Shown: positions 1 to 31,789 of the stretch, one piece after another
Position numbering within the stretch: the first letter of the stretch is position 1
Layout of the letters: the number at the start of each line of letters is the position of its first letter
Notes under the pieces: model-generated
Told to the model about the DNA's origin: nothing
Database searches by the model: none
The model's input: only the letters and a program-made list of their open reading frames with translations
Program-made: the position numbers and the translations under genes
DNA from: Lachnospiraceae oral taxon 107 str. F0167
GTDB lineage: Bacteria; Bacillota; Clostridia; Lachnospirales; Lachnospiraceae
Reading direction: 5' to 3'
DNA length: 36,869 bases
Assembly: GCA_000209465.1 (NCBI GenBank)
Contig: GL890604.1
Span: 1 to 36,869 of the forward strand

Positions 1-484
<484 letters not shown>

Positions 485-3832: not shown

Positions 3833-4792
3833 ATGGCAAATCTTGTAGACTATGTAAAATGGCGTGGAGATTTATCCTTTGAGATTTCTCCTTTTAATGA
3901 GATTGACAATGCGGTTTTTTCGTTGTTATCCTATATTGATTTGAAAGACTTACAAACAGAAATAAACTCTACCGGCATTTCCATCAAAGATGTCTGCAAG
4001 TATTTAATTGCCGGTGGATATCAATATGGATATATGAGTGAGATAACCTTGGATTTTTTGAATGAACTTCTATCTTCAAAACGATTTGGAAATGTAATGA
4101 TAGTTGACTATGTGGACCTTTATCATGAGAAAAAATATCAGTTTTCCTCAACAGGATATTTATATAAGGAGAATAATATATATCTTGCGTTCAGGGGAAC
4201 GGATGACAGTATTATAGCTTGGAAGGAAGATTTTATGATGAGCTTTTCCGTTATACCGGCACAGAAGTTTGCTCTCAGCTTTTTAAAAAAGGTATTTTCC
4301 AATCATCCGGATGCAAAGTTTATAGTTGGCGGACATAGCAAGGGTGGGAATTTGGCGCTTTATTCATCTGCTATGTGTGATAAATCCCTGCAAGACAGAA
4401 TCATCACAATATATAACAATGACGGTCCCGATCTTTGTGAGGAAGTCATTAATAATGATGTTATGAATGCTATAGAGCGTAAGTTGATTAAAATAGTACC
4501 GGAGTTTTGTATTGTCGGAATGATCTTTAACAGTACAAAAAATCTGAAGGTTGTAAAGTCTGATAATATAGCATTTCTACAGCATGATATACTTAATTGG
4601 AATTGTCTTGGTACAAGCTTTGAGCTTATCTCTGATGTAACTAAAGAGGCAAATAAATTTAATAATCTACTGGACAAGGTTTTGGAACACACCGACTTGG
4701 ACAAGCGCCGAGAGTATGTAAATAATTTCTTTGATAAAATAATAGATGCAGGCACTACCAGGCTTCCCTGGGGTAAGAAAAACAACTCATAA
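3833..4792 (+). CDS. Mbeg1-like (DUF2974) alpha/beta-hydrolase
   Basis: A 319-residue serine-hydrolase-like protein. The nucleophile elbow GGHSKGGNLALY places the candidate catalytic Ser at residue 169. It is preceded by the YLAFRGTDDS segment typical of lipase class 3-like folds. The start YVKWRGDLSFEISPFNEIDN is characteristic of the DUF2974/Mbeg1-like family common in Bacillota. The physiological substrate is not known. I chose ATG 3833 over ATG 3821, because the upstream ATG lies inside the GGAGG ribosome-binding site that serves 3833. There is no signal peptide, so it is likely cytoplasmic. It appears monocistronic, with terminator hairpins downstream. Confidence 0.85.
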   Translation: MANLVDYVKWRGDLSFEISPFNEIDNAVFSLLSYIDLKDLQTEINSTGISIKDVCKYLIAGGYQYGYMSEITLDFLNELLSSKRFGNVMIVDYVDLYHEKKYQFSSTGYLYKENNIYLAFRGTDDSIIAWKEDFMMSFSVIPAQKFALSFLKKVFSNHPDAKFIVGGHSKGGNLALYSSAMCDKSLQDRIITIYNNDGPDLCEEVINNDVMNAIERKLIKIVPEFCIVGMIFNSTKNLKVVKSDNIAFLQHDILNWNCLGTSFELISDVTKEANKFNNLLDKVLEHTDLDKRREYVNNFFDKIIDAGTTRLPWGKKNNS

Positions 4793-19064: not shown

Positions 19065-19098
19065 GATTTTGCTTGAATAAAAATAAATGGGAGAGAAA

Positions 19099-22000
19099 AT
19101 GAGTCTTTTAGAACTTTCAAAAAAGTATGGAAAAGATGAATATAGACTTTTAAAAGAAAATCCCGGATTAGAGAATCTGTCCTTTTTTTCATCTCTGTCG
19201 CTTGGAAATACAGAGTGGATAGATATACAGGGAAAGACATTATTCCTCGGAAGTCAGATTGCAATATTGGATGATCTGTGTAAGAAATCAAAAGTCTATA
19301 TCTATGAAGAGTCAAAAGAAAAATCGGAAAGTGTGCAGGCTGTTTTCGGCAATAGCATAGAATATATTTCAGATTTAAAAAGTATAGATTTTAACGGATT
19401 TGATACTGTTATCGCCTATGGTGCCGAGATGGTATCAAGGCTTATGGAAAATGAAAAGCCCGAAACAAAGATGGTTTTAATATTTGATAATAAGTACGGT
19501 ATGAACTATTTTGAAGAGGATTTCGGAGATAAAAATCCCTTGAGTGTAAATACTGTAAGACAATGGCTTAAAGAGGGGTATTCCACATATTATCCATATC
19601 CAAACTATAGATATGTTTATAAACTTTTTTCAGACAAGGAAATGCCCGGAGAGGGAGAGCTTGCACAGATAAAAGCTTATGATTATCCAAGATTTGCACT
19701 CAAAGATATCGGTGAGAGATTTTCACAGGCTGCAAAAACAGGAGATTTTGATACCTTTGCAAACTCATATATACTGGTTTGCGGAGGCAGTGAGGAGAAC
19801 ATCTATATTAAATACAACAGAACCAGACTTCCAAAGTATCAGATAAAGACGGAAATCAGGAGAAGAGAAGGTGAGAAGTATGCCTTAAAGTCCGCTCTGA
19901 AAAAAGACGGTATTCCACATATACTGGGTATGTATGACAGGGCAAAGCTTATAAAAAATGACAATGTGACAGTGCTTGAAGGGACTTTTAAAAATGCCGG
20001 AGAGATAAACTTCCCCTTTGTAAACGGAAAGTCTTTAAACAGGCTTTGTGCAGACAGCATAAAAAAAGATATAGACAGCTTTATAGAAGGTATTAAGGGA
20101 TATCTTGAACAGATAGTGGATAATGACGCAATAAATCTTGATGCCATATTTGATAATTTTATATTTGACGGAGAGAAGTTTATCGTTATAGACTGCGAAT
20201 GGATATTTGATGAGTCGATGGATTTTATAAAGGATAGAGAACTCTTTATAAAATACCGTGCATTGCACAGCTTTTATCAAAATAATGCAAGCAAAATACA
20301 GGAAAATTTCGGTCTTGTTGAGGAAGAATTCCTGGAAAAGTTCGGTATAGATGATATAGATGCCTTTGACTTTATGGAAAGAAGATTCCAGGAATATATC
20401 CATGGCGATTATCAGGAAGTTTATCTGGACAATTATTTTGTGGAGACAGTAAGCCGTGATACTCTAAATGAGGGATTAAAAGCGCTTGAGGAATTACCGC
20501 ATGCAAAAAATAAGATAACCGAGCTTTCAGAGATAAATAAGGACAGAGAGCTGGCTATCAAAGAGATGACAAGGCTTAGAACCCTTACGGATAATCATGT
20601 AAACAACCTGGGGATAATAATAGATAATCTAAGACATGAAAATGAAGAGCTTGCAAAGACCTTGAATGTGTACAACAGCAATCTCTCCATTCCTTTCAGA
20701 ATCAGAAGAAAGTTAAGCACAATTTACAATAAAAAATATCCTAAGGGAAGTATGGAAAGAAAAAGGCTTAACTACAGGCTTATGAGCATTTTCCATCCTA
20801 TAAAATATTTTAAATTAACACATTCCGAACAGGGAAAAAACCTTATAGAGGGCGAATTTAAAATAGGTGATTTATACAGAGAAAAGGGCAGAATAGAGTT
20901 CCCCTATGTGGAAAATCCTAAGGTAAGTATTATTATACCTGTGTATAATCAGATACATTATACCTATGCCTGTCTGGTATCCATTCTTGAAAATACTGTA
21001 GGGTTTGATTATGAGATAATCATTGCCGATGATGTATCCACAGATGCTACAAAGGAAATAGATAAATTTGTAAGAGGTCTTGTAATTGCAAGGAATGAAA
21101 GTAATCAGGGATTTTTAAAGAATTGTAATAATGCCGCAAAAAAGGCGAGAGGCGAGTATATATTCTTTTTAAATAATGATACAACCGTGAAAGAAAATTG
21201 GCTGCCGCCGCTTATAAAGCTGCTTGAGTCTGACAGGAGTATCGGAATGGTAGGTTCAAAACTTATATATCCTGACGGCAGATTGCAGGAGGCAGGAGGC
21301 ATCATATGGAGTGACGGCAGCGGCTGGAACTATGGCAGATGTGATGATCCGAATAAGCCCGAGTATAATTATGTAAGAGATGTTGACTATATATCAGGTG
21401 CGGCGATAATGCTTAGCAGAAAACTCTGGGAGGAAATCGGTGGATTTGATGAAAGATATGCACCTGCATATTGTGAGGATTCAGATCTTGCCTTTGAGGT
21501 GAGAAAGCGTGGACTGAGGGTGGTATATCAGCCGCTCAGTGTGGTAATTCATTTTGAAGGTGTATCAAACGGTACGGATGTTAACGGCACAGGGCTTAAG
21601 AGATATCAGGTGGAGAACAATAAAAAGCTTCAGGAAAAATGGAGTGAGGAGTTTAAAAACCAGTACGACAATGTCGGTGTGCCGAATGCCTTTAGAGCCA
21701 GAGAAAGAAGCAGAGGCAAAAAGGTTATACTCTTTGTAGACCATTATGTGCCGACCTTTGATAAGGATGCCGGCTCAAAAACTACTTTCCAGTATATAAA
21801 AATGTTTATAGAAAGAGGTTATGTGGTGAAGTTTTTGCCGGATAATTTTGCAAAGTCCGAGCCATATACCGAAATTCTGGAGCAAATGGGTGTAGAGGTA
21901 TTATATGGCAATGAGATGAGAACAAATATATTTGAGTGGATTGAAAATAATCAGTCAAATATTGATATTGTTTATCTTAACAGACCTCATATTGCAACAA

Positions 22001-22815
22001 AATACATTGATTTTATCAAAGAAAAAACTGATATCAAGGTAATCTACTATGGTCATGATTTACATTTCCTGCGTGAAAGAAGAGAGTATGAGCTTACCGG
22101 GGATGTGGAGAGAAAAAATGCCAGTGCATATTGGAAGAGTATGGAGCTTGACCTTATGAGAAAGGCAAGTATAAGCTATTATCCTTCAAATATTGAGGTG
22201 GACTATATACATACATTTGATAAGAAGATAAATGCCAAAGCTATAACAGCCTATGTATTTGAGAGGTTTAACCATATTGACTATAATCCGGATATCAGAG
22301 AGGGTGTATTATTTGTAGGAGGATTTTCACATCCGCCGAATGCAGATGCACTAAAGTATTTCCTTGATAATATGTGGGAAAAAATCTATGCACAGATAAA
22401 AGTACCGTTTTATATAGTGGGTTCCAATGCTACAGATGAAATAAAGGCACTTCACAATGAGGAAAGGGGTATAATATTTAAAGGCTTTGTCAGTGAAGAG
22501 GAATTAAAAGAACTATACGAGAAGGTAAGGCTTGTAGTAGTACCTCTAAGATACGGAGCAGGAGTAAAGGGCAAGGTAATAGAGGCACTATATTATCGTG
22601 ATCCGGTAATAACCACTGCTGTAGGCGCGGAGGGAATAGATAATTCCCATAATCAAATGTTAGTAGCAGATGAACCGGATGATTTTATAACGGGATGTGT
22701 AAGGCTATATAATGACAAGGAAGCTCTAAAAGATATGAGCAGAGCAGCCGGAGAGTATGTAGAAAACAAGCATAGTGTAGAGGCTGTTTGGGAAATAATA
22801 AGAGAAGATTTTTAG
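19099..22815 (+). CDS. Large multidomain glycosyltransferase (GT2 plus GT-B fold)
   Basis: A 1238-residue cytoplasmic protein. Residues 1-130 look Rossmann-like (TLFLGSQIAILDDLCKKSKV). Residues 200-390 recall aminoglycoside/WaaY-type kinases, with NLDAIFDNFIFDGEKFIVIDCEW as a catalytic-loop-like segment. About 470-525 is a coiled coil. About 604-860 is a GT2 domain with VSIIIPVYNQ, DDVSTD, FLNNDT and APAYCEDSDLAFE. About 873-1238 is a GT-B (GT4-type) domain with YGHDLHF and VVPLRYGAGVKGKV. Such fusions build O-antigen or wall-glycan chains. ATG 19099 follows GGGAGAG; the ATG at 19087 is upstream of that site. It is the last gene of the cluster and is followed by a terminator. Confidence 0.9.
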   Translation: MSLLELSKKYGKDEYRLLKENPGLENLSFFSSLSLGNTEWIDIQGKTLFLGSQIAILDDLCKKSKVYIYEESKEKSESVQAVFGNSIEYISDLKSIDFNGFDTVIAYGAEMVSRLMENEKPETKMVLIFDNKYGMNYFEEDFGDKNPLSVNTVRQWLKEGYSTYYPYPNYRYVYKLFSDKEMPGEGELAQIKAYDYPRFALKDIGERFSQAAKTGDFDTFANSYILVCGGSEENIYIKYNRTRLPKYQIKTEIRRREGEKYALKSALKKDGIPHILGMYDRAKLIKNDNVTVLEGTFKNAGEINFPFVNGKSLNRLCADSIKKDIDSFIEGIKGYLEQIVDNDAINLDAIFDNFIFDGEKFIVIDCEWIFDESMDFIKDRELFIKYRALHSFYQNNASKIQENFGLVEEEFLEKFGIDDIDAFDFMERRFQEYIHGDYQEVYLDNYFVETVSRDTLNEGLKALEELPHAKNKITELSEINKDRELAIKEMTRLRTLTDNHVNNLGIIIDNLRHENEELAKTLNVYNSNLSIPFRIRRKLSTIYNKKYPKGSMERKRLNYRLMSIFHPIKYFKLTHSEQGKNLIEGEFKIGDLYREKGRIEFPYVENPKVSIIIPVYNQIHYTYACLVSILENTVGFDYEIIIADDVSTDATKEIDKFVRGLVIARNESNQGFLKNCNNAAKKARGEYIFFLNNDTTVKENWLPPLIKLLESDRSIGMVGSKLIYPDGRLQEAGGIIWSDGSGWNYGRCDDPNKPEYNYVRDVDYISGAAIMLSRKLWEEIGGFDERYAPAYCEDSDLAFEVRKRGLRVVYQPLSVVIHFEGVSNGTDVNGTGLKRYQVENNKKLQEKWSEEFKNQYDNVGVPNAFRARERSRGKKVILFVDHYVPTFDKDAGSKTTFQYIKMFIERGYVVKFLPDNFAKSEPYTEILEQMGVEVLYGNEMRTNIFEWIENNQSNIDIVYLNRPHIATKYIDFIKEKTDIKVIYYGHDLHFLRERREYELTGDVERKNASAYWKSMELDLMRKASISYYPSNIEVDYIHTFDKKINAKAITAYVFERFNHIDYNPDIREGVLFVGGFSHPPNADALKYFLDNMWEKIYAQIKVPFYIVGSNATDEIKALHNEERGIIFKGFVSEEELKELYEKVRLVVVPLRYGAGVKGKVIEALYYRDPVITTAVGAEGIDNSHNQMLVADEPDDFITGCVRLYNDKEALKDMSRAAGEYVENKHSVEAVWEIIREDF

Positions 22816-22973: not shown

Positions 22974-23216
22974 ATGAAAAAAGTAGGTAATATATTGCTA
23001 ATTGCTATATGGACTATAAATTTGATTCTGCTTGCAATAATTGTGGCAACCACACCGGAAATAATATATAAGATAGTTATGGGAATATCCATGATAAATG
23101 CGATTAATACAATCGTAAGAGCAGTACGTAGTGAAATAGGTAATTTTGAATTTATTTTTGAAATGGTATGTGGTGTAATACTTGTTTTGATCTTAAGTTT
23201 TATTATTATAAGATAA
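22974..23216 (+). CDS. Small membrane protein of unknown function (80 aa)
   Basis: An 80-residue hydrophobic protein with two clear and one weaker transmembrane segment (about 5-26, 29-45 and 58-79). A short polar stretch (AVRSEIGNFE) precedes the last one. I do not recognise a family. The consensus GGGAGG ends 14 bases before ATG 22974, which is far. An in-frame ATT at 22968 sits at the ideal distance, so a rare non-canonical start is conceivable; a weaker AGGT is nearer to the ATG. The gene is flanked by terminators on both sides, so it is monocistronic. Confidence 0.65.
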   Translation: MKKVGNILLIAIWTINLILLAIIVATTPEIIYKIVMGISMINAINTIVRAVRSEIGNFEFIFEMVCGVILVLILSFIIIR

Positions 23217-23262
23217 AACTTGTTAAATGAATATTATAGGTTGATTCCTGTATAGGGCAAAG

Positions 23263-23293
23263 AAGCGAGTTGAATTTTTCAATTCGCTTTTTG
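23263..23293 (+). terminator. Terminator after the small membrane protein
   Basis: AAGCGAGTTGAA pairs with TTCAATTCGCTTT and is followed by T residues, about 50 bases after the stop at 23216. Confidence 0.8.
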
Positions 23294-23334
23294 TATGAAA
23301 TTGATATGTGTATTATAGAATAATATATATACTT

Positions 23335-23367
23335 TGAAAGTTTAGAATCAAATTCTAAGCTTTTTTT
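23335..23367 (+). terminator. Second terminator-like hairpin
   Basis: AAAGTTTAGAAT pairs with ATTCTAAGCTTT over a CAA loop (12 bp, one G:T), followed by T residues. No gene lies between it and the preceding terminator, so it acts as a backup insulating the downstream sugar operon. Confidence 0.7.
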
Positions 23368-23479
23368 GAATACAAAAAATAATATTTCACGTCTATTCTA
23401 CATTTAAAAATTCTCAAAGGACAAAATGCATAATAAACTAAATAAAAAATGGATACAATAGAGAAAAAATCTTTGTATA

Positions 23480-23507
23480 TTGACAAAAAACACCCAAGTT
23501 GTAAAAT
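23480..23507 (+). promoter_or_regulatory. Promoter of the sugar operon
   Basis: A perfect TTGACA (23480-23485), 16 bases and TAAAAT (23502-23507) stand about 85 bases before the binding-protein gene. The -10 overlaps an inverted repeat at 23499-23517. Confidence 0.7.
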
Positions 23508-23517
23508 TAAATTACAA
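23499..23517 (+). promoter_or_regulatory. Putative RpiR-type operator
   Basis: TTGTAA, seven A/T bases, TTACAA form a 19-base inverted repeat covering the -10 box. It resembles the TGTAAT-N-ATTACA sites of RpiR-family regulators such as HexR. The RpiR gene at the end of this operon is the obvious candidate ligand-responsive binder; the link is inferred from site and gene context. Confidence 0.5.
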
Positions 23518-23593
23518 GTAAAACGTGAATGAGGAATTTTATAAAATAAAATTACAAAAATGAAATAAAATTTCTCGGAAAGTGAGGGGTAAT

Positions 23594-24919
23594 ATGAAAA
23601 TAAGTAGATTTGTAAAGTTGGGTATTACAACAGTGTTATCGTGTGCTTTGCTGACAGGTCTTGTTGGATGCGGTAATAACAGTACACCTAAAGCAGAAAG
23701 TTCAGGTGGGGATACAAAAGAAGTATCTTCCGAAGCGGAGACTAAGAAGGCTGGTGGAGTAACTATTAAATTCCAACAGTGGTGGGGTGGAGAGTTGCCG
23801 GAAGGCTATCTGCAAAAAATATGTGATGAATATGAAGCTGCCACAGGTAATAAGGTAGAGCTTTTGACAGCACCCTGGGCAGACACTAAGACAGCTATAA
23901 CAGCCGGGGCAACAAATGGTACAATTGCAGATGTGCTTAGTATTGATGGAGCATGGTTATCAGAGTTTGTTGATATGGGCATTTTAACAGATCTTTCAAC
24001 TGTAGATGTGAAATTAGATCTGGCAAGTGATGTTTGGAAGGTAGATAATAAAGAGTATGTAGTTCCGATATTAAATTTTGCCTATCCGATGTATGTAAAT
24101 ATGGATATTTTGGAAAAATCAGGTGTTGAAAAAATTCCGACTACATGGACTGAGTTGGAGCAGGCTTGTGAAAAAATAAAAGCTGCCGGATATTCAGCGT
24201 TGGCTTTAAATTTGGGAACTACAAATGCCAATGGTATACAAAATGTATTTATGGGAACAGGTTGGGCATCAGGAATTGCATTAAAAGATAAGGATGGCAA
24301 ATATTTGACTAAAGACAATAGTGAACTTGCTTCCTTAGCAGAGATGTATAAAAAACTTTATGATTTGGGAGTATTATACCCGGGAATGAGTACATTGGAA
24401 GAGGCTGAAATGACAAGTAATTTTGCAGCAGGAAATTGTGCATTTACCATTGCATCTGCAGCAACAATGAGCCAATTCGAGAAGTTGAACTTTAAAGCTG
24501 CTACAATACCTGTTAAAGATGATTATAAAGAACAAAGCGGCATTTGTTATGCGAGTTGGGCTGTTGGAATTTCAGAGTCATGTGAAAATAAAGAAGCTGC
24601 GGCAGAGTTTATAAATTTCTTATTGGGTGGAAAAGATGGAAAAGACGGTTCTGCATCTGCGGGATTGGCATCGACAATGTCAGCATTTCCAAACAGTAAA
24701 GTGGCTACACCGGACTACAGTTCAGCACCAACACAGTTCCAAGAGTACTATGAGGAATACAAAAAGAATTATGTTATAAATGAGTTTATCGGATTGGCAA
24801 ATGCTTCAGATGTTATGACATCTATGACAAATGACCTGGTAATGTATTTAGAGGGTGAGATGGATGTCAACAAGATGTTGGAAAATTGGCAAAACTATTT
24901 AGATAATGCAGGTAAATGA
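23594..24919 (+). CDS. Sugar ABC transporter substrate-binding lipoprotein
   Basis: A 441-residue extracellular solute-binding protein of the CUT1 (family 1) type. The signal peptide ends in the lipobox LVGC (Cys26 lipidated), followed by a Ser/Glu/Lys linker. The mature domain begins TIKFQQWWGGELPEGYLQKICDEYEAATG, the usual start of family 1 binding proteins. Aromatic residues (WWGG, WASGIAL, CYASWAVG) probably line the sugar site. ATG 23594 follows GAGGGG; the in-frame GTG 23582 lies before that site. Two permeases follow, but no ATPase gene is present, so a shared MsmK-like ATPase elsewhere is implied. The sugar is unknown. Confidence 0.92.
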   Translation: MKISRFVKLGITTVLSCALLTGLVGCGNNSTPKAESSGGDTKEVSSEAETKKAGGVTIKFQQWWGGELPEGYLQKICDEYEAATGNKVELLTAPWADTKTAITAGATNGTIADVLSIDGAWLSEFVDMGILTDLSTVDVKLDLASDVWKVDNKEYVVPILNFAYPMYVNMDILEKSGVEKIPTTWTELEQACEKIKAAGYSALALNLGTTNANGIQNVFMGTGWASGIALKDKDGKYLTKDNSELASLAEMYKKLYDLGVLYPGMSTLEEAEMTSNFAAGNCAFTIASAATMSQFEKLNFKAATIPVKDDYKEQSGICYASWAVGISESCENKEAAAEFINFLLGGKDGKDGSASAGLASTMSAFPNSKVATPDYSSAPTQFQEYYEEYKKNYVINEFIGLANASDVMTSMTNDLVMYLEGEMDVNKMLENWQNYLDNAGK

Positions 24920-24976
24920 TCATATTACTGAAGTGATTACTATTCATTTGTGAAACTACTTAATGGGAGGGGTTAG

Positions 24977-25861
24977 ATGAATATATTAGCTGGAAAAAAG
25001 TCTGCACCATATAGATATTTATTACCTACAATTACATTGATGATTGTATTTATGGTAGTACCGATTTTCATGGTAGTTACATATTCATTTGCAGACAAGG
25101 CGGTTATATCAAAAAATCCCTCTTTTGTGGGATTGGAAAACTATTATAAACTATTTAAAGACAGTAACTATTGGAAATCTGTATATAACACAATTATATT
25201 TGTAGCTGTAAGTGTTATTGCACATATGGTTATAGGCATGCTATTTGCAATATTGTTAAATTCAAAATATTTCAGTGTAAGAACAAAGACAATTGCAAGA
25301 GTTATTTATATATTGCCATGGGTATTCACAGCATCTGTAGTTGCCATACTTTGGAAATTGATGTTACAACCATCCGGAATTATAAATTATATTCTATCCT
25401 TGTTTCCTCATGTAAATAGAGATACAGAGTGGCTTAGTGACAGAGCAATTGCACTGCCTGTTATATGCTTTATAAATATATGGTGTGGTTATACGTTTTA
25501 TATGATCAGTATATTGGCCGGATTACAGGGAATCTCAGAAGATTTATATGAAAGTGCGGCAATAGATGGTGCTAATGATATTAAAAGATTTTTTAGTATT
25601 ACAATACCACAATTAAAGCCGATATTAATCAGTATTGCTATGCTGGATTTCATATGGACACTTCAATCCTTTAATGTTATTTGGATGTTGACAGGGGGTG
25701 GACCTGTAAACACTACCCAGACTTTAAGCATATACATATACAAACTGGCATTCCAGAAAGTTGATTACAGTATGGCGTCTACATCAGCCACAATATTGTT
25801 AATTGTATGTATTATCGTTGCGATTTTTTATGTAAGGCAGCAGAAAAAAGTGAGGAGCTAG
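24977..25861 (+). CDS. Sugar ABC transporter permease, MalF/UgpA-like
   Basis: A 294-residue CUT1 inner-membrane permease with six transmembrane helices. It opens with APYRYLLPTITLMIVFMVVPIFMVVTYSF. It carries the ATPase-docking EAA loop YESAAIDGANDIKRFFSITIPQLKP, and the segment WMLTGGGPVNTTQTLSIYIY is typical of UgpA/MalF proteins. It starts behind GGGAGGGG, 58 bases after the binding-protein gene, and is followed after three bases by the second permease. Confidence 0.95.
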   Translation: MNILAGKKSAPYRYLLPTITLMIVFMVVPIFMVVTYSFADKAVISKNPSFVGLENYYKLFKDSNYWKSVYNTIIFVAVSVIAHMVIGMLFAILLNSKYFSVRTKTIARVIYILPWVFTASVVAILWKLMLQPSGIINYILSLFPHVNRDTEWLSDRAIALPVICFINIWCGYTFYMISILAGLQGISEDLYESAAIDGANDIKRFFSITIPQLKPILISIAMLDFIWTLQSFNVIWMLTGGGPVNTTQTLSIYIYKLAFQKVDYSMASTSATILLIVCIIVAIFYVRQQKKVRS

Positions 25862-25864
25862 ATT

Positions 25865-26701
25865 ATGGTGGGAAGTCATACCGGTATAAAGAAGATAATA
25901 GCTACAGTATTGCTGGTGATAGGTGCCGTTTTTGCATCATTTCCTATTCTTTGGATGATATGTTCATCATTGAAAGACAATTCTGAAATATTTTCATGGC
26001 CGCCAAAGTTTATTGACGCTACATTCAGCTTTAAGTCATATATTGCGGTTATTACAGACAGTACAAAAGTAAGATTTTTTGTGAATAGTTACATTGTGTC
26101 CATTTGTGTTGTGGTTGCAACATTACTAATAGGGATATTAGCTGCTTATGCATTTAGTAGATTTGATTTTCCGGGAAAAGGAGTTTTAAATTCAATAATA
26201 ATAAGTGTACAGGCTATTCCTCCAATTGTGCTGCTTATTCCGTATATGGGATTGATAGTAACAATGAAATTATTTAATACATATTTGGCATTGATATTGA
26301 CTTATTTGATAATGACATTGCCATACTGTATTTTAATGATGACCGGATATTTCAATACATTATCAAGGGAGTTGGATGAAGCTGTAATGATAGATGGTGG
26401 ATCAAGATGGAAAGCGTTATGGTATATACTTGTTCCAATAGCAGTGCCAAGTATGGTGTCTGTAGGAATGTATACTTTCATGCAGGCATGGAATGAGTAT
26501 TTGTTTGCATTGGCTTTAACACAGACAACGGAGATGAGAACGGTGCCCATAGGTATTAACTTACTTATGGGACAGCATGCATATGACTGGAGTCAGATGA
26601 TGGCTATGAGCGTTTTGGGCTCAATTCCTGTTTTAATATTATTTGTATTTTTTCAAAAATACTTTATTGCAGGAATGTCATCGGGAGGTGTTAAAGGCTG
26701 A
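25865..26701 (+). CDS. Sugar ABC transporter permease, MalG/UgpE-like
   Basis: A 278-residue CUT1 permease with six transmembrane helices. The opening FPILWMICSSLKDNSEIF, the EAA loop ELDEAVMIDGGSRWKALWYILVPIAVP and the C-terminal FQKYFIAGMSSGGVKG are all characteristic of MalG/UgpE. The start lies three bases after the first permease's stop, using its 3' end (GAGGAG) as ribosome-binding site, so the two are translationally coupled. It pairs with the preceding permease to form the channel. Confidence 0.95.
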   Translation: MVGSHTGIKKIIATVLLVIGAVFASFPILWMICSSLKDNSEIFSWPPKFIDATFSFKSYIAVITDSTKVRFFVNSYIVSICVVVATLLIGILAAYAFSRFDFPGKGVLNSIIISVQAIPPIVLLIPYMGLIVTMKLFNTYLALILTYLIMTLPYCILMMTGYFNTLSRELDEAVMIDGGSRWKALWYILVPIAVPSMVSVGMYTFMQAWNEYLFALALTQTTEMRTVPIGINLLMGQHAYDWSQMMAMSVLGSIPVLILFVFFQKYFIAGMSSGGVKG

Positions 26702-26720
26702 TTAATTAAAGGAGAGAAGA

Positions 26721-27581
26721 ATGATATTAAATATGAAAAATTTGCTTGGAGTAGCAAGAGAAAAAGGATTTGCAGTTCCGGCATTCAATATTAGTGATTA
26801 TAATATGTTTAATGGAATTATGGAGATATGCGAAGAGAAAAATGCGCCGGTTATTATTGCAATTCATCCTGATGAACTTAAACATATTACATCTGAAATG
26901 GTTAAGGGAATCATAGCAAGAACAAATAATTCAAAAATTCCGGCTGTAATACATTTAGACCATGGTGCTTCTATTGATCAAATTATAAAAGCAATACAAA
27001 TAGGGTTTACATCTGTTATGATTGACGGTTCTCTATTACAATATGAAGATAATGTAGATATTTGCAAGAAAGTATGTGATTTAGCTTATGTGGTGGATGT
27101 GTCTGTGGAGGGCGAACTTGGAACTATAGGAAATACAGATTCTAAAGAAACCACTGCACCTGAAGATATACTGTACACAAATCCGAAACAAGCAAAAGAT
27201 TTTGCAAAAAGGACGGGAATAGATTGTTTGGCGGTTGCAATAGGAACGAGTCATGGAATATATCCTAAGGATAAGATACCAAAATTAAGAATAGATATAT
27301 TGGATGAAATCAGAAAAGAGGTTTCAATTCCATTGGTATTACATGGCGGATCATCAAATAAGGACAGTGAAATTGAAAAAGCTGTGGAACATGGGATAAA
27401 TAAGATAAACATATCAAGTGATATTAAAGTTGCATATTATAAAAAAATGAGGGAAGTACTTAGAGATGAATCACTTAGAGAGCCAAATGTTATTCAGCCA
27501 CCATGTGTAGCAGAGATGAAAAAAATTGCGGCAGAAAAAATTAAACTTTTCAAAGCGGATAATATGGCAATATTTTATTGA
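26721..27581 (+). CDS. Class II (zinc) ketose-bisphosphate aldolase family protein, copy 1
   Basis: A 286-residue TIM-barrel aldolase of the FBA/GatY/KbaY family. Visible residues are the catalytic Asp80 and zinc His81 in HLDHG, Glu130 in VEGELG, zinc His178 in GTSHG, zinc His208 in LHGGSS, and the phosphate-binding KINISSD. All metal ligands are present. The family cleaves fructose-1,6- or tagatose-1,6-bisphosphate or related ketose phosphates into two trioses. The exact sugar is unknown; the divergent second copy three genes on suggests it is not plain fructose bisphosphate. A GGAGAG site lies before ATG. Confidence 0.88.
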   Translation: MILNMKNLLGVAREKGFAVPAFNISDYNMFNGIMEICEEKNAPVIIAIHPDELKHITSEMVKGIIARTNNSKIPAVIHLDHGASIDQIIKAIQIGFTSVMIDGSLLQYEDNVDICKKVCDLAYVVDVSVEGELGTIGNTDSKETTAPEDILYTNPKQAKDFAKRTGIDCLAVAIGTSHGIYPKDKIPKLRIDILDEIRKEVSIPLVLHGGSSNKDSEIEKAVEHGINKINISSDIKVAYYKKMREVLRDESLREPNVIQPPCVAEMKKIAAEKIKLFKADNMAIFY

Positions 27582-27605
27582 TTGTATTAAAGAGGGATAA
27601 CTGAG

Positions 27606-28805
27606 ATGGATGAAAAAATTGCTATGGGCTTTCACACTTGTGTAGATTACGAATTAATTTGGGATAAAAATGTAATTGAAGAGCAAATTAAAAGACATAA
27701 TATCCATAACAAAGACTTAGAAATGAATATAGGAGTTTTATCTGAAAGGGATATATTGATTACTGCTCTTGCACATCTTAAAGAAGGGGTGGGCTGCGAA
27801 ATAATACCTGAAACAGAGCAACAAAGTAAGGATTTTGCAGAACATTTCAAATATAAGATAACATTAGGCGGTACAGCAACAAGAGCGGCAATTGCAATTT
27901 CAAATCTAGGTTATCCCAGTTTAATACAAACAAGCTGTTACAATAAGTATGTAAGAAAGTTATTGCCGCCGGAAGTTAGAGCAATACCGGGAATCAAAGG
28001 AAAAGAAATAATATATCCTCATATAGTCTTACAATGTGCGGGAGGGGTAAGAATAAAGGCCAATGATATAGATTTTATCACTCCCAGAGAAAATAGAATT
28101 TTAATATCTTATGATGAGGATAGTTTAAATCTGCCGGTTCTGGAAAAAGAGTTCGGTAATGAAATAAAAAAATGTGAAGTATTTTTATTGGGATCTTTTA
28201 CTGAGATATTGGATTTTGAAATATTGAAAGATCGTATAGAAAAAACATATAATATGCTGTCGTATTTACCGGATAATGCTATTGTAGTAATGGAAGATGG
28301 TTGTTATATTAAAGAAGAGTTCAGACATTACATACATAGTAAGCTTGCATGTAGAGCAGATATTTTAAGTATGAATGAAGATGAACTTCAAAAATATATC
28401 GGGCGCCGGATAAATATAATGGATAAGGACGAGGTTATGGATGGAGTTAAATACATTTATAACAAGACGGGAATTAAAAATATACTTGTCCACAGTGCTG
28501 CATGGGTTATTGTATATGGAAATAATGCACGAAAATTAAATAAAGCTTTAGAAAGCGGTATTGCCATGTCTGCTACAAGATTCAGAAAAGGAGATGATTT
28601 TAATAAGGATGATTATTTATATACTAAAAATTTAAATGATAAATCTGAAAGTAAAATGTTTTGCCAAAAATTGGAACAGGAATATGGGGAGAATATTTGT
28701 TGCAGACCTTGTAAAGATTTAAGTTTTGTTGAGCATCCTACAGTTGTCGGATTGGGAGATGCCTTTGCGGGTGGTTTAGTAATTGGTTTATTAGAGAGAG
28801 ATTAA
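27606..28805 (+). CDS. ADP-dependent phosphofructokinase/glucokinase family sugar kinase
   Basis: A 399-residue protein of the ADP-dependent sugar kinase family (ribokinase fold), known mainly from archaeal glycolysis. Landmarks are the substrate-lid region ITLGGTATRAAIAISNLGY, the nucleotide-site motif ILSMNEDELQKYIG and the C-terminal VVGLGDAFAGG, whose Asp385 is the expected catalytic base. The length is slightly shorter than archaeal enzymes (about 450). In this operon it probably phosphorylates the imported or hydrolysed sugar, giving a ketose phosphate for the flanking aldolases. Phosphoryl donor (ADP or ATP) and acceptor cannot be read from sequence. The start follows GAGGGAT. Confidence 0.85.
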   Translation: MDEKIAMGFHTCVDYELIWDKNVIEEQIKRHNIHNKDLEMNIGVLSERDILITALAHLKEGVGCEIIPETEQQSKDFAEHFKYKITLGGTATRAAIAISNLGYPSLIQTSCYNKYVRKLLPPEVRAIPGIKGKEIIYPHIVLQCAGGVRIKANDIDFITPRENRILISYDEDSLNLPVLEKEFGNEIKKCEVFLLGSFTEILDFEILKDRIEKTYNMLSYLPDNAIVVMEDGCYIKEEFRHYIHSKLACRADILSMNEDELQKYIGRRINIMDKDEVMDGVKYIYNKTGIKNILVHSAAWVIVYGNNARKLNKALESGIAMSATRFRKGDDFNKDDYLYTKNLNDKSESKMFCQKLEQEYGENICCRPCKDLSFVEHPTVVGLGDAFAGGLVIGLLERD

Positions 28806-28824
28806 ACAAAGAGAGTATATCCAT

Positions 28825-29679
28825 ATGTATGAAAAAACACAGAATATATTAAGAATGGCAAAGGAGAGCAATACTTCTGTTATAGCTTTTATTTGCATGG
28901 ATTATATAATGGCTCGTTCAGTAGTATATGCAGCAGAAAAAACAAATACACCGGCTATTGTGATGCTATATCCGGAGCATGTAAGTGTTCAGCATACAAC
29001 AGGAATTTGTAATTATGCAACTATGGTTAAAGAACTTGCCGGTGAAGTTAATGTACCTATAGGATTACATGCGGATCATGACTATAGTTATGGAGCCGTG
29101 GTAAGGTCTATGAATGCAGGATTTGATTCAATAATGATTGACGGCTCCATGCACTCTTTAGAAAAAAACATTTCTATTACAAAGGAGGTAGTAATTAAGG
29201 CGCATAGCCTTAATGTGTGCGTTGAGGGAGAAATAGGTCATGTAGGACTTGCAAAGGAAGATGCTGATAGTAGAGAAGATTTATATACAAAACCGGAGGT
29301 TGCCAAAAAATTCTGTGATGAAACAGGAGTTGATGCATTGGCTGTTTCAATAGGCAATGCACATGGAGAGTATAAATCCATACCGAAGTTGGATATAAAA
29401 AGATTAGAGGAGATACATGACATGACGGATGTTCCTTTGGTGCTTCATGGAGGAAGCGGAATTCCGGATAATCAATTATTGATTGCGTTTTCTAAAGGCA
29501 TAAACAAATTTAACTTGGGTACAGAATTTTTGGGAAGATATTATTCTGCGATGGAAGAATATATAAATGTTAACAAATATAATTCAAACCCGGTAAAGAT
29601 TATTGACTTACCGGAATATGTTCAGTCGAGGCTACAGCCTTACTTAGAAAACAGACTAAGAACTTTATGCAGATTTTAA
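28825..29679 (+). CDS. Class II ketose-bisphosphate aldolase family protein, copy 2
   Basis: A 284-residue protein of the same fold as the gene at 26721 but clearly divergent. It reads HADHDYSYG (Asp84, His85), VEGEIG, GNAHG (His180) and LHGGSG (His208), and the phosphate loop is KFNLGTE rather than KINISSD. The metal ligands are kept, so it should be an active aldolase. The differences around the catalytic Asp and phosphate site suggest a different substrate or stereochemistry from copy 1; a two-subunit (GatY/GatZ-like) role is less likely because both look catalytic. GAGAG lies upstream of ATG 28825. It is the last enzyme before the regulator. Confidence 0.85.
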   Translation: MYEKTQNILRMAKESNTSVIAFICMDYIMARSVVYAAEKTNTPAIVMLYPEHVSVQHTTGICNYATMVKELAGEVNVPIGLHADHDYSYGAVVRSMNAGFDSIMIDGSMHSLEKNISITKEVVIKAHSLNVCVEGEIGHVGLAKEDADSREDLYTKPEVAKKFCDETGVDALAVSIGNAHGEYKSIPKLDIKRLEEIHDMTDVPLVLHGGSGIPDNQLLIAFSKGINKFNLGTEFLGRYYSAMEEYINVNKYNSNPVKIIDLPEYVQSRLQPYLENRLRTLCRF

Positions 29680-29712
29680 TATTGAATAGTGGTTTATAAA
29701 AGGAGATGGATT

Positions 29713-30561
29713 TTGGAAGAAAGTAATATATTAAATAGAGAAGTCCTTAGTGTGATGAGAGAAAAGTATAAGAAAATGTCAATTGCTGAAAGAAAGGTAG
29801 CAGATTTTGTTGTAAAGAATCCTCATAAAACTGTAGATTGCAATGTGGCCGATCTGGCAAAACTTAGTGGTGTAAGTGATGCAACGATAGTTCGAATGTG
29901 CCATCATATAGGCTATACAGGCTATTATCAATTTAGGATTACATTGGCAAGAGATATGGGGAAGAGTCAATATAGTGATATAAAGGTATCAAACAGTACA
30001 GATGAAATAAAGATTTTTTTTCGAGAGTATGCTGAAAATATGATAGCAATCGGAAAGAGATTAGATACTGAAACGATGTGGAATTGCGTAAAGCTCATAA
30101 GAAACTGCGGTATGGCACATATTATAGCAGTTGGAAATACAGTACCTTTATCACAATATATTGGCTTTAGACTTGGACGTTTGGGAGTGAGGAGCAGTTT
30201 TGGATTGGCTACCGAATATTATATGAATCATATCAATTTGGCGGAGCCAAATGATATTGTAATTGCAATTTCAAAGTCAGGTGCATCAAAGCCGATACTT
30301 ATGGGTATGGAACTGGCTAAGGAAAAAGGCTTAAAATCTATTGCAATAACAGCTTATGAGGAATCACCGGTAGCAAAAATGGCAGATTATATATTGCTTT
30401 CAAGAGGAAAGGATATTTCCTTTAATTATTATAAAGATTATTCACATACAAATATGATGGCAACAATAGATGTTCTACTGGAATTTTTAACAAATGAGGA
30501 ATCTATAAGAAAAAAGCAGGCAGATAGGCCGGAGATAATTTTATCGGAATATAAGGTTTAA
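29713..30561 (+). CDS. RpiR-family transcriptional regulator
   Basis: A 282-residue regulator with an N-terminal RpiR helix-turn-helix (about 8-80, MSIAERKVADFVVKNPHKTVDCNVADLAKLSGVSDATIVRMCHHIGY) and a C-terminal SIS domain (about 115-250, containing DIVIAISKSGASKPIL) that binds sugar phosphates. TTG 29713 is chosen because AAAAGGAG stands seven bases upstream; GTG 29689 lies before that site. It is the last gene of the sugar operon. Its probable target is the TTGTAA/TTACAA repeat over the operon promoter, with a pathway sugar phosphate as effector. Confidence 0.9.
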   Translation: MEESNILNREVLSVMREKYKKMSIAERKVADFVVKNPHKTVDCNVADLAKLSGVSDATIVRMCHHIGYTGYYQFRITLARDMGKSQYSDIKVSNSTDEIKIFFREYAENMIAIGKRLDTETMWNCVKLIRNCGMAHIIAVGNTVPLSQYIGFRLGRLGVRSSFGLATEYYMNHINLAEPNDIVIAISKSGASKPILMGMELAKEKGLKSIAITAYEESPVAKMADYILLSRGKDISFNYYKDYSHTNMMATIDVLLEFLTNEESIRKKQADRPEIILSEYKV

Positions 30562-30709
30562 AAATATCGGAGTAAAAGTAGTAAATAAATATATTAAATA
30601 TAATATTCAGAAAATTAAAACAATATATACAATTAAAACAGATTAAAATATCAATATAAGAATATAATAAAATAAAAAAGAAAAAACTATAAAAAGTTTT
30701 AAAACACTA

Positions 30710-30737
30710 TTGACAAGAACAAAAAATCTGATATACT
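30710..30737 (+). promoter_or_regulatory. Promoter of the candidate noncoding RNA
   Basis: A perfect TTGACA (30710-30715), 16 bases and TATACT (30732-30737) make a strong promoter. It lies 150 bases past the RpiR gene with no credible protein gene on the same strand after it. The stretch 30562-30709 is AT-rich; I see no clear terminator for the sugar operon in it. Confidence 0.75.
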
Positions 30738-30743
30738 GTAGAC

Positions 30744-31240
30744 ATAAACAAAGAAAGAATATATTCTTAAAAAGTTTAATAAATGAAATCCACAGGGGAG
30801 AAGCAAAAAGCTTTAAAAAGTGGAAAAATGTAAAAGGAGGTATGGTCCAAAGAAAACTTAAGTAATGATTAGACTTTGATCTAATCCGGAACCTATAAGA
30901 GGATTGTTAGATAATATATTATTGAAAACTTTAAAAGTTACTATCTGAAGAATCGGTTAGGATAGTATCATACAGGTTTTATGACGAGAAAGTAGGATTT
31001 GTATGAAGAATAGACCGTGTAGATAGATTGATAACAACCATGTATTTTTTAAAAGTGAAAGGAAACTTATAGGAGGAAAATTAAAAACTGAATAGTAACA
31101 TCTATATAGAATGTCCAATAAATCGTGAAAGGACATCAAAAAATATAGAAAATAGGCTTTTATGAAAGTGAGGATTAATCCGTTGGAGCCGGAAATGTGT
31201 TGAAGAGAGCATTGATATAAAAAGTTAATGCTCTCTTCTT
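30744..31240 (+). ncRNA. Candidate large structured noncoding RNA (about 500 nt)
   Basis: Downstream of a strong promoter lies a purine-rich stretch without a plausible ORF but with many inverted repeats. They are AAGAATATATTCTT (30755-30768), GATTAGA/TCTAATC (30867-30886) inside GGTCC/GGAACC (30844-30893), TTAGATA/TATCTGA (30907-30948), TCATACA/TGTATGA (30968-31006), ATGTCC/GGACAT (31111-31136) and a perfect 12-bp 3' hairpin (31202-31238) with a U-rich tail. It contains none of the core motifs of RNase P RNA, tmRNA, SRP RNA or T-box that I know. Size and context would allow a ROOL/GOLLD-like large RNA, but I cannot assign a class. Confidence 0.6.
31202..31240 (+). terminator. 3' hairpin, probable terminator of the candidate RNA
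   Basis: GAAGAGAGCATT pairs perfectly with AATGCTCTCTTC over a 13-nt loop. The tail TTATTATG is U-rich but not a full U-run, so termination may be inefficient. It also separates the RNA from the convergent minus-strand operon. Confidence 0.65.
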
Positions 31241-31294
31241 ATTATGTGGTTCTTTGTCAAATTTTGGTGTGGATAGATTTTTAAACCGGTTATA

Positions 31295-31789
31295 TTATGC
31301 TCCGGCAATTTCCTTTGTTTCCACTTGAAATTTGCCATCATCATCCACATTCATTATCATATATGTAGGCATATGACCGGCTTGCCTGGGATAGCCGAGA
31401 GAACCCGGGTTTAATATGGTTACACCGTCTATTGTCTTTACATAAGGTCTATGAGTATGACCATACATAGCAAAATCACAACCTCTTGATATTGCCTCGT
31501 CTTTTAAAATTTCAACTCCCATGCTGACACCATATTGGTGACCATGTACCAAAAGAGCCTTATGATTTTTGATGTTAACCTCTTTTTCCTTGGGAAGCTG
31601 TGAAAAGAAGTCGTTATTTCCCTGTACAATAAAGCAGGAACAATCAGGCTCAAGCATATAGCTTATTTTGGTTTCACTACTTTCGACATCCCCAAGATGG
31701 ATAAACATATCAAAAGGTTTTTCTCTTTCAATCACCTTTTTGAGTATATCATCCATTCTGTGAGTGTCACTAACAATCAGTATTTTCAT
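31295..31789 (-). CDS. YfcE/YsnB-type metallophosphoesterase
   Basis: A 164-residue calcineurin-like phosphoesterase. The metal-binding motifs are SDTHR (7-11), HLGDVE, QGNND, LVHGHQ and YGHTHRP, with NPGSLGYPR near the end. This is the short YsnB/MJ0936 branch; the cellular substrate is unknown. ATG 31789 follows AGAGGAAA. Its start overlaps the end of rdgB by 20 bases, so the genes are coupled; the same fusion-like pairing rdgB-ysnB is common in Bacillota. It is the last gene of the minus-strand operon. Confidence 0.9.
   Translation of the reverse strand: MKILIVSDTHRMDDILKKVIEREKPFDMFIHLGDVESSETKISYMLEPDCSCFIVQGNNDFFSQLPKEKEVNIKNHKALLVHGHQYGVSMGVEILKDEAISRGCDFAMYGHTHRPYVKTIDGVTILNPGSLGYPRQAGHMPTYMIMNVDDDGKFQVETKEIAGA

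Follow-up and report, generated by a model that had tools for sequence, protein, structure and literature searches.

A conserved stand-alone RNA gene of Lachnospiraceae with ribosome-binding-site-like modules and, usually, a mini-ORF at its terminator

Sequence comparison confirmed positions 30710-31246 of the window (the whole 36,869-nt stretch analysed, from contig GL890604.1 of Lachnospiraceae oral taxon 107 str. F0167) as a conserved stand-alone RNA gene that has its own promoter and terminator and lacks an ordinary protein gene. The initial annotation had proposed a stand-alone noncoding RNA; the stand-alone, conserved gene stood, but the RNA is probably not purely noncoding, given a terminal module that carries the marks of translation. 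The comparisons support the promoter, the terminator, the family, the conservation of a repeated module, the anti-Shine-Dalgarno strength of that module, the mini-ORF signature and the covariation of one hairpin. Our preferred reading, to which we assign a probability of roughly 0.38, is that of a stand-alone trans-acting RNA engaging or titrating ribosomes, by a mechanism that we infer.

Results

An RNA gene with its own promoter and terminator

As had been claimed, the locus opens with a TTGACA-16-TATACT promoter on the + strand (30710-30737), which has 11 of 12 consensus matches, is the best of eight promoter-like sites in 30500-31400 (5.2 expected) and is retained in all six aligned genus sequences. 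Of 80 family loci, 71 likewise have a TTGACN-16..18-TANNNT promoter 5´ of their first module, compared with a mean of 1.7 and a maximum of 5 for shuffled sequences. The perfect 12-bp 3´ hairpin is also where it was said to be (31202-31213/31227-31238), within the only terminator-like site found (0.4 expected). This intrinsic terminator spans 31202-31246 on the + strand, and the base of its stem is overlapped by the stop codon of a mini-ORF. With the transcription start set 7 nt past the -10 element, the promoter and terminator positions predict a + strand transcript of ~500 nt (30744-31246). The next gene (31295-31789) is convergent to the candidate RNA, in agreement with the initial annotation. 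The accompanying statement that there was no ORF with a credible start was right in that the candidate RNA stretch holds no + strand ORF of at least 60 aa, but it had overlooked the six-codon, TTG-initiated mini-ORF at 31183-31203. We also noted that the contig carries rRNA at both ends, and that 39 nt located 3´ of the terminator (31249-31287) match contig C15 of the same genome (87%) beside another hairpin, possibly a small repeat.

A family found mainly in Lachnospiraceae

A nucleotide search of 61 genomes with the candidate RNA recovered it from its own genome and all five other genus members searched, with 83-87% identity over ~500 nt. Four more genomes gave short matches only, one of which (G009) turned out to be a relative. 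Named matches (L. orale, L. saburreum) identify the genus as Lachnoanaerobaculum. The genus alignment shows the -35 and -10 elements, the module, the hairpins and the terminator to be kept, with similarity fading past the terminator. In another genus member (G002, contig C6), 42 nt at about positions 1500-1541 of locus L013 copy the beginning of the RNA (88%) and lie 5´ of a 91-aa ORF, as if the leader had been duplicated.

Among 397 genomes of the bacterial family, sampled evenly from a larger set, 10 contain the best-kept piece, GGAGGTAYRGTCCRAAGNNNANNTAAGTAATG, with at most three mismatches. A related exact pattern occurs in 17 stretches among ~85,000 GTDB genomes, assigned to Lachnospiraceae, Butyrivibrio, Eubacterium, Blautia and Lachnoanaerobaculum, and in one case to a bin labelled Muribaculaceae; this bin carries a near copy of the Blautia locus and may be a binning error. 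We then applied a sequence-only model of the module, R1, which has 48 positions and was built from 21 sequences including module 1 of the window. Of the 397 family genomes it matched 106 at E 0.01, a number that fell to 71 at E 0.001 and to 32 at E 1e-5. At E 0.001 it also matched 5 of 196 genomes sampled across the order, four of which belong to the same family; 5 of 245 sampled across the class, where two belong to that family, one outside it is convincing and two look like chance by eye; and 1 of 249 sampled across the phylum, the window's own genome. Since the two matches rejected as chance (L117, E 2.6e-5; L118, E 1.6e-4) scored so well, the E-values of the model err on the optimistic side, and there must be false ones among the 106 family matches. 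Several genomes have two or three separate loci. Taken as a whole, the matching loci are an RNA family, mainly of Lachnospiraceae, without an entry in Rfam 15. A phage origin was considered and set aside, as viral contigs gave no match with one pattern and a single match with another; that match falls within a long ORF on a phage-like contig and reads as chance.

A linear repeated module with the strength of a Shine-Dalgarno sequence

The size and stand-alone nature of the RNA fit the large structured RNA that had been proposed, but what is best conserved in it resembles a ribosome-binding site: a linear, apparently unpaired module that is repeated in many relatives. The consensus, AAGGAGGUAYRGWCCA-NNN-NNN-ACN-UAA, is present in 1-8 copies per RNA. 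Modules were collected with the filter GGTA..[GA][TA]CC plus a purine-rich lead, and the letters so fixed are 100% by construction. From 236 modules, 57 outside the filter and then 11 near-duplicates were dropped, leaving 168, which still include a few chance cores, such as that at 4502 on the + strand of L029. In these 168, the core GGUAYRGWCC comes after an A-rich stretch and GGAGG-like letters, a pattern partly made by the filter, and GAGG, GGAG or AAGG is found in 166, largely by construction given that GG and a purine-rich lead were required. The number and order of modules vary from locus to locus, neighbouring modules lie a median of 58 nt apart, and position 7 is U or A even within one RNA (L063, for example). 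In the window, module 1 (AAAAGGAGGTATGGTCCAAAGAAAACTTAAGTAATGA; 30832-30868, + strand) combines a strong Shine-Dalgarno sequence with AAG at the start position and an in-frame UAA three codons on; R1 matches it at E 2.8e-11, its sequence being one of the 21 from which the model was built. By reading of the sequence, a possible degenerate second module (TAGGAGGAAAATTAAAAACTGAATAG) lies at 31070-31100 on the same strand.

AAG is not known to initiate translation. The start-codon position is occupied by a non-start codon in 109 of the 168 modules (AAG 45, CCA 18, ACA 14, AAA 10, CCG 9, ATC 7 and others) and by ATG, TTG or GTG in 59. For the start-type modules, the first in-frame stop falls within seven codons in 56 of 59, compared with 32/59 and 19/59 for the two alternative frames, where ATGA inflates the count of the +1 frame. 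The mean duplex energy with the 16S rRNA tail, whose sequence was taken from the window's own genome, was -14.4 for the 109 non-start modules and -11.9 for the 59 start modules. By comparison, 22 window genes, with starts as listed for their ORFs, gave -6.6, and 400 random 25-mers of the window gave -4.6. Twenty tests, covering 10 segment pairs in each of two module classes, showed equal pairing inside the modules for native and swapped halves (|z| at most 1.9), and unpaired modules are what is expected for a linear ribosome site. A UAAG/CUUA stem within the module, suggested by the consensus, was unsupported by this swap test and was not in the best six of an ungapped pair scan.

Two observations fit the ribosome reading less well. 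A stop is superfluous where AAG or CCA stands in place of a start, yet 84 of the 109 non-start modules have one at the fourth codon, usually as ACNUAA. Nor does a pure ribosome site account for the strong conservation of the UAYRGWCC spacer and of CUUAA further on, which is why our confidence in the reading stays below one half; a protein or RNA partner could account for this conservation. The spacer might pair with UUGGAUC of 16S rRNA: natural spacers did so better on average than their shuffled versions (-19.6 versus -17.5), but consensus spacers with U at position 7 were equalled by 5-16% of random spacers and 7-20% of shuffled ones, and those with A by 9-41% and 25-72%, respectively.

The conservation beyond the Shine-Dalgarno sequence, the linear, unpaired motif and the tandem copies (of 93 clusters by strict core, 44 have at least two modules and 49 are single) are all features expected if an RNA-binding protein reads GGUAYRGWCCANNRAAACUUAA in its 1-8 copies and is titrated in the fashion of CsrB. 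CsrB is a stand-alone RNA with its own promoter and terminator and many copies of one short binding site, and the family resembles the CsrB/RsmZ sponges in these respects. It differs from them in that the site is a linear module of Shine-Dalgarno strength rather than a GGA hairpin, that CsrA is often missing in carriers and that the RNA usually ends with a mini-ORF. CsrA itself was excluded as a general partner: PF02599 was detected in 5 of 20 carrier genomes tested and in none of six of the genus, and 62 of the 168 modules have no GGA between -10 and +2 (GGA is present in 106/168 between -10 and +2 and in 128/168 between -10 and +20). As no protein stood out as a candidate and the mini-ORF would be left unexplained, we consider a protein sponge rather unlikely.

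A terminal mini-ORF against the terminator

The terminal module of the window (31170-31203, + strand) consists of GAGG (31170-31173), a 9-nt spacer and the mini-ORF (31183-31203), TTG GAG CCG GAA ATG TGT TGA, predicted to encode fMEPEMC. Its orthologues read ATG GAA CCA GGA ATA TTT TGA, TTG GAG CCA GGA ATA TGT TGA and TTG GAG CCA GGA ACG TGT TGA. We scored a mini-ORF as a Shine-Dalgarno sequence, a start codon and an in-frame stop after 4-10 codons including the start, the end of which lies at most 2 nt ahead of the terminator stem or 8 nt inside it. This arrangement, with 5-9 codons, was found in 56 of the 70 loci that have a terminator past the last module (shuffled upstream sequence: mean 2.7, maximum 8) and was missing in the other 14. 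The count leaves aside 12 of 82 loci without a terminator found by the script, three of which (L025, L064 and L067) have a mini-ORF by eye; it includes nine MKL... peptides that are ambiguous with a hairpin, with L014, L024 and L039 of the same subfamily scored as misses; and it treats loci of related species separately (six of one genus; L031/L038), so that the counts are non-independent. In the commonest case (18/56), the stop ends 2 nt inside the scored stem. Among the 56, starts are ATG (34), TTG (19, with an ATG directly next in two) and GTG (3), and stops are TAG (22), TAA (21) and TGA (13). D is the commonest second residue (25), ahead of E (12), K (9) and N (4), with others in 6. As a control, other terminators of the same loci had the arrangement in 3 of 92 cases, two of which read as family RNAs missed by the core filter; an earlier, looser control, in which family RNAs were under-masked (masking over 800 nt only, and later loci that held family RNAs), gave 16 of 147 terminators. 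In a member of the RNA family from another bacterial family of the same order (L112, 1500-2060), Shine-Dalgarno sequences are followed serially by mini-ORFs beginning MD (MDSE*, MDREAIF* and MDNR* by reading).

The start and stop are kept despite codon variation, and 41 of the 56 have D, E or N as second residue, as might be expected if the RNA served to make short formyl peptides that act as signals or on the ribosome translating them. However, the peptides differ widely between species (MDSIV, MDNMF, MNEIV, LDNEQ and MEPGIF are examples), coding is ambiguous in the MKLLEIH subfamily, in which the same letters can form a hairpin, and the bulk of the RNA would be unexplained; a peptide-coding RNA thus seems improbable to us.

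The position of the stop, 2 nt before to 8 nt into the stem, could also mean that a ribosome at the mini-ORF stop melts the terminator, with translation setting the amount of short RNA. We find this quite improbable, given that downstream genes are unconserved, and convergent in the window, leaving read-through without an obvious target. The same point separates the family from uORF motifs (for example those of PMC8632094) and leader-peptide attenuators, in which a short ORF lies beside an intrinsic terminator: the short ORF adjoining the terminator is shared, but the family RNA is a stand-alone gene without a conserved downstream gene in the same direction in flanks of ~1.2-1.5 kb.

Genomic setting

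No neighbouring protein family recurred within ~1.2-1.5 kb in more than five of 70 loci, and those five were all of one genus. With neighbours unconserved, a trans-acting RNA is the most likely. A protein that matches the glycosyltransferase-like ORF of the window (19087-22815) stands directly 5´ of the RNA in five genus relatives. In the window, ORFs at 22974-30561 (transport, aldolase and RpiR-type by reading) separate the two, and the direct adjacency in relatives suggests that these ORFs were inserted. Elsewhere, a group II intron match (L014, 239-309; 43.9 bits, gathering 40) is close 5´ of a family RNA, and the family RNA of L022 lies slightly more than 1 kb 3´ of an rRNA-tRNA unit.

A trans-acting RNA might also pair with other RNAs, or act as a sponge for an RNA with an anti-Shine-Dalgarno-like seed, for which repeated, apparently unpaired G-rich seeds would be suited. 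Such a role is very unlikely: the search for an antisense partner in the window's own genome gave 14 complements (at most two mismatches, own locus included) versus 17 for the reversed control, and position 7 varies between U and A inside the single RNA of L063.

Limited support for a global fold

The region had been described as hairpin-rich, with at least six inverted repeats. The latter number was exceeded, with 41 pairs, few of them perfect among the 25 listed. The predicted fold (-101.9 kcal/mol) beats those of shuffled sequences (-83.0, sd 6.0; z -3.15; 1 of 100 as good), but changes on both sides were seen in just 3 of 125 predicted pairs in the genus alignment. The homologue collection called for by the initial annotation thus yielded a family and one hairpin covarying strongly across genera, but little evolutionary support for the global fold at genus distance. 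The covarying hairpin (30968-31006, + strand; loop UGACGAGAAAG at 30982-30992) was found in 16 of 84 locus-strand sets, that is, at 16 loci, with GACGAGAAAG preceded by U every time; GACGAGAAAG was the search string and is invariant by construction. Its stem had a covariation score of 0.773, compared with at most 0.20 for slid structures, and none of 500 shuffles scored as high. Double changes were seen in 7 of 7 pairs, a measure that alone was matched by 50 of 500 shuffles. Three other + strand hairpins are predicted by folding. The one closed by UCCAC/GUGGA (30789-30824) has its five pairs in all six genus sequences, invariant and so uninformative either way. GATTAGA-CTTTGA-TCTAATC (30867-30886) appears in the single-sequence fold only, and the genus consensus fold pairs part of it differently. 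The AUGUCC/GGACAU hairpin (31111-31136) has lost its innermost pair in two of the six genus sequences, in which a U-A pair has also turned into U-G.

ROOL, GOLLD and OLE are stand-alone RNAs of several hundred nt in Bacillota, and the family is like them in these properties. At gathering scores, Rfam 15 matched only rRNA and tRNA in the whole window, and at E up to 10 the region 30560-31300 gave only four sub-threshold microRNA matches, all on the terminator hairpin. The covariance-model check thus found no Rfam 15 family in the candidate RNA, and the earlier view that it has no RNase P, tmRNA, ROOL, GOLLD or OLE core was borne out. For eight relative loci (E up to 1), only rRNA, tRNA and an upstream group II intron end were above threshold, the rest being sub-threshold. 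With no such match, no large conserved fold found, unpaired modules and a module count and order that differ among loci, a large ornate RNA is scarcely credible, even though the size, the fold z-score and the covarying hairpin are compatible with one.

Discussion

How might the preferred RNA, one that engages or titrates ribosomes, work? Transcription, ribosome binding, a lack of initiation and a physiological effect are what we infer. The inner modules have a much stronger Shine-Dalgarno match to the 16S rRNA 3´ tail than do the window genes, with the start position filled by a codon not expected to initiate (AAG, CCA, ACA, AAA, CCG) or by an ORF of two or three codons. The 30S subunit would bind a module, and then either not initiate or initiate, end immediately and rebind. 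At the 3´ module, a start and a short ORF with the stop at or near the terminator stem would park one ribosome against the hairpin. The effect may be titration or idling of ribosomes, or protection of the RNA in a ribosome-dependent way.

Lambda bar and the 23S rRNA pentapeptide are examples of minigenes. The family shares with minigenes a Shine-Dalgarno sequence plus an ORF of few codons (PMC8708949), but it has serial arrays of such sites, mostly start-less, on a dedicated RNA. No counterpart with arrays of start-less ribosome-binding sites was found in Rfam 15 or in the literature searched, and nothing similar was recognised there; most subscription journals and all supplements lay outside that search, and an earlier description is possible. 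The main texts of two surveys of bacterial RNA motifs (PMC11109978, PMC8632094) have no mention of Lachnospira- or Butyrivibrio. As judged from these comparisons, the novelty would lie in the architecture, an array of ribosome-binding-site-like modules, mostly start-less, usually with a mini-ORF against the terminator, for which a function is predicted.

Lachnospiraceae are among the commonest gut bacteria. The broader proposal, which we hold to be doubtful, is that the family represents a new bacterial RNA class common in Lachnospiraceae, an RNA-only ribosome titrator that controls translation capacity through serial start-less sites and mini-ORF parking at the 3´ hairpin. If the modules are bound by ribosomes, the family would add an RNA to the known ribosome-sequestering factors; if they are bound by a protein, it would point to a new RNA-binding regulator.
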